DNA from: Deferrisoma camini S3R1
Lineage (GTDB): Bacteria > Desulfobacterota > Deferrisomatia > Deferrisomatales > Deferrisomataceae
Length of the DNA stretch: 64,000 nucleotides
Direction of reading: 5' to 3'
NCBI RefSeq assembly: GCF_000526155.1
Contig: NZ_JAFN01000001.1
Location: forward strand, 686,501 to 750,500
A program made the translations under genes and the position numbers. Numbering within the stretch: the stretch's first letter is position 1; each line of letters opens with the position of its first letter. Below are positions 29,898-30,096 of the stretch, one piece after another. Below the pieces are notes generated by a model. That model ran no database searches. It saw only the letters and a list, made by a program, of their open reading frames with translations, and was not told where the DNA came from.

Positions 29898-29969
29898 GGC
29901 TCTCTACCTCCCAACCTTGTGAAATGCGGGCTTGGTGGCCTTAGCAACTGTACGGGATGCGAGAGACCT

Positions 29970-30033
29970 GGGCGTGGCGACCGCGCTTACCCACGGGCTT
30001 GGGGTCCCAAAGGGACGTCGGTCTGCCACGCCC
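29970..30033 (-). ncRNA. Candidate IS110 bridge RNA core
   Basis: In the upstream non-coding end of the IS110, plus-strand bases 29970-29983 (GGGCGTGGCGACCG) pair with 30019-30033 (CGGTCTGCCACGCCC) to give a 14-bp stem with one bulge. Inside it, GTCCC-AAA-GGGAC (about 30004-30016) makes a second hairpin. Bridge RNAs of IS110 elements lie exactly in this position and have stem-loops whose internal loops specify target and donor DNA. The fold is read by eye; the RNA ends and guide loops are not determined. The IS630 insertion at 30053 lies outside the stem. Confidence 0.6.
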
Positions 30034-30096
30034 TACCGAGATAACAAAGTTATTAACCCGGTGGCTAAATAGGCGCGATTATGGTACACTGTCGTC

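Follow-up and report, generated by a model that had tools for sequence, protein, structure and literature searches.

A predicted bridge RNA locus in an interrupted IS110-group element of Deferrisoma camini, and solo left ends that break within the DNA encoding a target guide

In a 64,000-nt window (positions 686501-750500) of the 4.24-Mb single-contig genome of Deferrisoma camini S3R1, the minus strand of 29898-30052 was found to be the left non-coding end of an IS110-group element, and comparison with related elements supports its assignment as the bridge RNA of this IS621-like element. In a genome of the same genus and in Escherichia coli, we also observed solo left ends that stop within the DNA encoding the LTG, one of the target-loop guides, and continue directly into the right target. 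We consider it very probable that one explanation covers the whole: an IS621-like bridge RNA, a junction promoter split by an IS630 insertion, and LTG-coding DNA that is sometimes used as a half-site and leaves scars.

The assignment to the IS110 group follows from domains, layout and insertion site. The recombinase matches the Pfam families DEDD_Tnp_IS110 (4.7e-26) and Transposase_20 (1.4e-19), giving a DEDD RuvC-like domain and a C-terminal Transposase_20 domain with the catalytic serine; D12, E56, D98 and D101 (the DEDD residues) and S236 all are present and lie in invariant columns. The closest PDB relatives in a sequence search are ISCro4 (3.2e-47) and IS621 (9.7e-42); ISCro4 (PDB 9t56), the nearest solved recombinase by sequence, comes from another organism and has another target. 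A long non-coding left end lies upstream of the gene, with a core-to-ATG distance of ~177 nt when the insertion is left out, and the left end is seen unbroken at locus L041. The long downstream non-coding region of the IS1111 group was not found, as only ~17 nt separate the stop codon from the right core. IS1111-group elements with seekRNAs (PMC11187229) have the same recombinase superfamily and RNA-guided target choice, but they carry subterminal inverted repeats and a non-coding region downstream of the gene, where the present element has its long one upstream. Insertion here is into a specific sequence with a CT core, terminal inverted repeats are absent, and all element ends in genomes G001 and G002 lie at CTTG.

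The boundaries of the element were observed directly. Read in the recombinase sense, it starts at 33290 (CT-TGTATAAGGGCC) and ends at 28927 (...ACACAGTTG-CT), its limits being the CAAG sequences at 28925-28928 and 33287-33290. Repeat copies without the element join exactly at both limits and hold one common CAAG (that at 28925-28928 belongs to both target and element end), confirming the flank positions named in an earlier note on this sequence. No second copy of the element was found in its own genome and no relatives were found in viral contigs; a search of genome contigs for relatives gave only four. The unbroken copies that the note had recommended looking for are present in the same-genus genome G001, where near-identical left ends (L041, L043-L045) occur at several sites of the same target, so that no sequence reconstruction was needed.

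Table 1. Features of the IS110-group element and its surroundings, in window coordinates.
Feature	Position	Strand	Basis or remark
IS110 recombinase (transposase) gene, 317 aa	28944..29897	-	Pfam, invariant columns, PDB matches
Right target RT, CTTGCCCC (core CT + TGCCCC)	28921..28928	-	Junction of empty repeat copies
Left donor LD + core, ACAGTTG-CT, right end of element	28927..28935	-	Equals LDG at 9/9; conserved in relatives
Left target LT, GCAGGTCC-CT, terminal part of ~190-bp inner repeat	33289..33298	-	
Element left end, core CT + RD TGTAT (CTTGTATAAG)	33281..33290	-	Includes -10 TATAAG
Outer left-end segment to IS630 insertion point, element nt 11-24 including TA	33267..33280	-	Unbroken natural copy L041
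Rest of left non-coding end, with bridge-RNA loops	29898..30052	-	
LTG, GACGTCC-CT	30011..30019	-	Also breakpoint DNA of solo-left-end scars in G001
RTG, GGGUAAG (GGGCAAG in G001 copies)	29986..29992	-	Pairs with CTTGCCC
LDG, ACAGUUG-CU	29943..29951	-	9/9 identical to right end
RDG, AUUUCACAAG	29916..29925	-	Discontiguous pairing with CTTGTAT; arranged as IS621 AUUUGCAAG (PMC11208158)
Target-binding-loop stem, 5' arm, with bulged A	30020..30033	-	Covariation
Target-binding-loop stem, 3' arm	29970..29982	-	Covariation
Small hairpin UUGG-GACC-CCAA, between LTG and RTG	29999..30010	-	Sequence; inferred from IS621 comparison
-35 TTGACA of circle-junction promoter	28942..28947	-	17-nt spacing across RE-LE junction
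-10 TATAAG of circle-junction promoter	33281..33286	-	Lies in element left end
IS630-family insertion	30053..33266	.	Terminal repeats; TA duplicated at 30051-30052 and 33267-33268

Guides were assigned by the rules for IS621 (PMC11208160, PMC11208158): the LTG and LDG have the top-strand sequence, with the core CT at their ends, and the RTG and RDG correspond to the reverse-complemented right halves. The LTG agrees with the flank CAGGTCC-CT at 7/9 positions, both mismatches falling among the seven non-core positions, and the RTG forms six Watson-Crick pairs and one G-U pair with its flank. In the donor loop, the LDG matches the right end, and the RDG fits CTTGTAT of the left end with unpaired bases mid-way. 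The target loop therefore matches the two flanks and the donor loop the two element ends, and the target is the repeat around GAGGGGCAAG/GGACCTGCC, as had been predicted, at exactly the junction given by the guides.

These matches extend to 19 elements from several phyla, in which the guides sit at fixed structural places. RT and RTG agreed exactly at 84 of 95 non-core positions (38.6 ± 4.8 after permutation; 0/20,000 permutations) and LT and LTG at 87 of 133 (53.2 ± 4.8; 0/20,000 permutations), in a comparison that is not blind, since the guides were positioned manually after the IS621 scheme; the LTG or RTG match was poor in 3/19 elements. Examples are GAAUGAG/CTCATTC (L007), CCGCGAG/CTCGCGG (L036) and CCTAACC/CCTAACC (L133). 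In genome G168, one element is present twice with differing guides (L134 and L145), and L145 sits at a target that fits the L134 guide rather than its own, which suggests a change of guide after insertion or action in trans.

The target-loop stem joins GGGCGTGGCAGACC (30033-30020, minus strand) to GGTCGCCACGCCC (29982-29970) through 13 bp and a single bulged A, nearly the 14-bp, one-bulge stem first described; the bulged A lies at the position of the flipped-out A in the IS621 target-loop stem (PMC11208158). The 155 nt of the minus strand fold with -64.8 kcal/mol, compared to -52.6 ± 4.4 for shuffled sequences (z = -2.8; 3/200 shuffles as good), but because the plus strand also reaches z = -2.1, fold energy by itself is moderate evidence only. 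Covariation in relatives is the stronger support for the stem: of 208 cells (13 pairs in 16 elements), 198 retain pairing, with several pair types per position, compared to 156.9 ± 4.6 cells when the 3' arms were exchanged between elements (0/20,000 reached the observed value). Such compensatory changes in the target-loop stem are those of an IS621-type bridge RNA and, together with the loop matches, bear out the bridge-RNA reading of the earlier note, which had named the lack of either as grounds for refuting it. The note's inner GTCCC/GGGAC hairpin survives in part: both sequences are present, but GTCCC belongs to the LTG, and the hairpin indicated by homology is the small one in Table 1, which would leave the guide free.

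IS621 (PMC11208160, PMC11208158) and the present element have in common a recombinase with DEDD residues and serine, an RNA in the left end, LTG/RTG and LDG/RDG loops, the CT core, the RD CTTGTAT, a discontiguous RDG, a promoter at the RE-LE junction, and a target in a palindromic repeat. They differ in their guides, in the target repeat end (AGGYCCCTTGCCC here, the REP sequence ATCAGGCCTAC for IS621), in the length of the RTG (7 compared to 4), and in the IS630 interruption. The target AGGYCCCTTGCCC has 170 exact copies in the D. camini genome, compared to 1 for a reversed control pattern, and sits at both ends of a ~190-bp inner repeat that often lies inside a second repeat with TACCAAGTTGC ends. 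Around the element, 28876-28928 and 33287-33507 form such nested repeats, the outer holding an inner repeat with CAAGGGACCTGCC ends, and the IS110 target is the end of the inner repeat. The first loop would steer the recombinase to the end of this repeat, AGGYCCC-CT-TGCCC in the element sense, and the second would recognise the circle junction ACAGTTG-CT-TGTAT. The element lives off a high-copy intergenic repeat, and its RNA would add a new, well-targeted member to a system under study for genome engineering.

When the right end is joined to the left end, the sequence reads TTGACA-N17-TATAAG, and the 17-nt spacing recurs in 13 of 14 relatives (14/15 elements with the present one), consistent with a junction promoter such as IS621 is reported to have. 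We infer that the RNA would be transcribed from this promoter, formed when the ends join in a circle, and bound by the recombinase. The predicted start lies at about element nt 17 and the loops begin at nt 42. The IS630 element, which has three further copies in the genome, breaks the left end after 24 nt between the duplicated TA, and because it sits ~7 nt downstream of the predicted start, it separates the promoter from the bridge RNA. This copy probably is silent for bridge RNA. At the two element ends, the cores, LD and RD have stayed intact, so the ends would be usable if recombinase and RNA came from elsewhere, making mobility in trans possible. The earlier note had proposed that RNA production may continue in an element no longer able to move; with the element's own promoter cut off and both ends intact, the reverse is more likely. 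The interruption itself is nested at three levels, the IS630 element holding an IS4-like transposase gene (30708-31907) and an IS200-like TnpA gene (32182-32676, minus strand).

When 253 nt of the left end were used to search G001, ten left ends were recovered, four of which run to contig ends. The other six (6/6) all stop at the CT of the LTG and continue with TGCCCC..., the right target. These scars have the form LT-CT-(TGTATAAG ... GACGTCC-CT)-RT, a solo left end of 64 bp, one of which later lost 7 bp. In each, the deletion runs from the element's LTG-coding DNA as far as the right core. The scars carry two left-end haplotypes (GTTATCTC and GTTCTCTC) in about five distinct target contexts and therefore derive from more than one event. 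At the three G001 loci tested (L047, L048 and L050), the scar-bearing repeat is absent or shorter in the relatives G000 and G002, and for this reason some scar copies may have travelled with the repeat.

For IS621, whose guides are unrelated, the corresponding prediction is a 74-bp scar ending in GTATCGGGC-CT followed by RT (AC...). A 30-nt query, made of 27 nt of left end plus ACG, matched 39 of 5,426 E. coli genomes; intact IS621 cannot seed the 28-mer search because it has only 27 nt in common with the query. Three of the 39 were examined, two at the same flagellar-cluster locus (L173 and L175) and one between msrQ and zinT (L174), and all read LT-[74 nt]-RT, exact to the base. Other strains have the empty target at these loci, exactly 72 bp shorter, and among the rows sampled neither locus held a full-length element. 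Queries of the same design at three other left-end CTs matched no genomes, no genomes and two genomes, one of the two being a point mutation and the other a real scar. The excess at the LTG in E. coli is that given by four designed junction queries. The real scar, in E. coli 700481 between ybiT and ybiU (L176), lies at element nt 49 and is joined exactly to the right target. An Enterobacter plasmid element was dropped as the test case for the E. coli search, as it was present in three genomes only.

Two other rearrangements of IS621-like sequence were noted in E. coli. Downstream of znuB in ST131-type strains (L170 and L171), about 554 genomes carry a left-end fragment, at one locus in the genomes looked at, whose LTG position reads TTATCCGAC, the same as its own left flank. 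No full IS621 with this variant guide was found. The fragment makes a weak third case of scarring; it may have a variant guide, or may have broken within target-like sequence that lies upstream of the LTG. In CP061270.1 (642499-643192; L187 and L188), a truncated IS621 copy stops after nt 425, and a CT-to-CT junction links it to a complete IS621 at the left end of the latter.

By construction, the DNA that encodes the LTG is itself a perfect left half-target with the core CT, and from this we infer RNA-guided self-targeting in excision or integration. During excision or a failed integration, the complex would sometimes use the LTG-coding DNA as if it were the true left junction, and the LTG core CT would join the CT at the junction of right end and right target, leaving 64 bp (74 bp for IS621). 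Such joining would remove gene, RNA and right end while a full-match target remained. Involvement of the RNA in excision has been called unclear for IS621 (PMC11208158); for IS1111-group elements, circles were found to form only with target sequence present on each side, and the RNA was concluded to take part in excision (PMC11187229). Self-guide scars are not mentioned for IS621 in the available parts of PMC11208160 and PMC11208158, but were found here for IS621 too, and a limited literature search gave no published account of them. Two elements with unrelated guides show that the breakpoint depends on the guide.

Ordinary microhomology or replication-slippage deletions, coinciding with the LTG by chance, would also produce short junctions, and the scar junctions do have two to three bases in common (CTT here, CT in IS621), with one IS621 scar at a different CT. 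We consider this unlikely, given that all six G001 internal truncations and the two E. coli loci break at the same functional base despite unrelated LTGs, that the right-hand breakpoint always is the exact core/RT junction, and that the three control CTs yielded zero, zero and one genome, respectively. Only slightly less doubtful is that the 64-bp and 74-bp fragments are mini-elements mobile in trans, or were spread by transposition of the host repeat. The fragments lack LD and so could not be recognised by the donor loop, the scars lie in about five repeat types or repeat ends with two haplotypes, and the E. coli scar loci are REP sites rather than such repeats; these points weigh more than the retention of core and RD at one end, the resemblance of the scar end GACGTCCCTTG to the repeat end CAGGYCCCTTG, the absence of the repeat or part of it from relatives at L047, L048 and L050, and the presence in E. 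coli of empty alleles while the full-length intermediate was not seen. It would be very surprising if the stem itself had no role as a guide and were just what a dead element had left behind, a palindrome or terminator-like structure: the copy is interrupted and single in its own genome and its fold z-score is modest, but covariation and guide/target agreement extend over 16-19 elements, and near-identical unbroken copies occupy several sites of the same target in G001.

We therefore favor, as fairly probable, a self-targeting hazard of IS110-group elements, in which the RNA-guided recombinase uses its own LTG DNA and deletes to the right core, leaving precise scars that record both activity and guide. 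To our knowledge, no rule by which bridge RNAs tell self from non-self has been described. If the RNA-guided recombinase does make the scars, a half target plus core would suffice in nature, any delivery of guide-encoding DNA along with the recombinase would bring in an off-target site, and solo left ends would provide a sequence-only readout of past activity and guide identity.

We also noted a match on the strand opposite the bridge RNA. At the gathering threshold, Rfam gave nothing for the bridge-RNA region; a permissive search gave only sX15 (RF02234), full length and below the cutoff, antisense to the bridge RNA at 29887-30047 (plus strand). The same model is antisense in a Methylorubrum element (L166, 1040-1199, minus strand), and of the four best sX15 matches among 297 genomes scanned, three lie antisense in IS110 left ends (L190, L191 and L193 being among the sX15 loci). 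The reverse complement of the sX15 consensus contains the LDG signature GCCCGAACAGTTGC. Judged from these matches, the Xanthomonadaceae sRNA sX15 may derive from antisense transcription of an IS110 bridge-RNA locus, or may represent such a locus recorded on the wrong strand.
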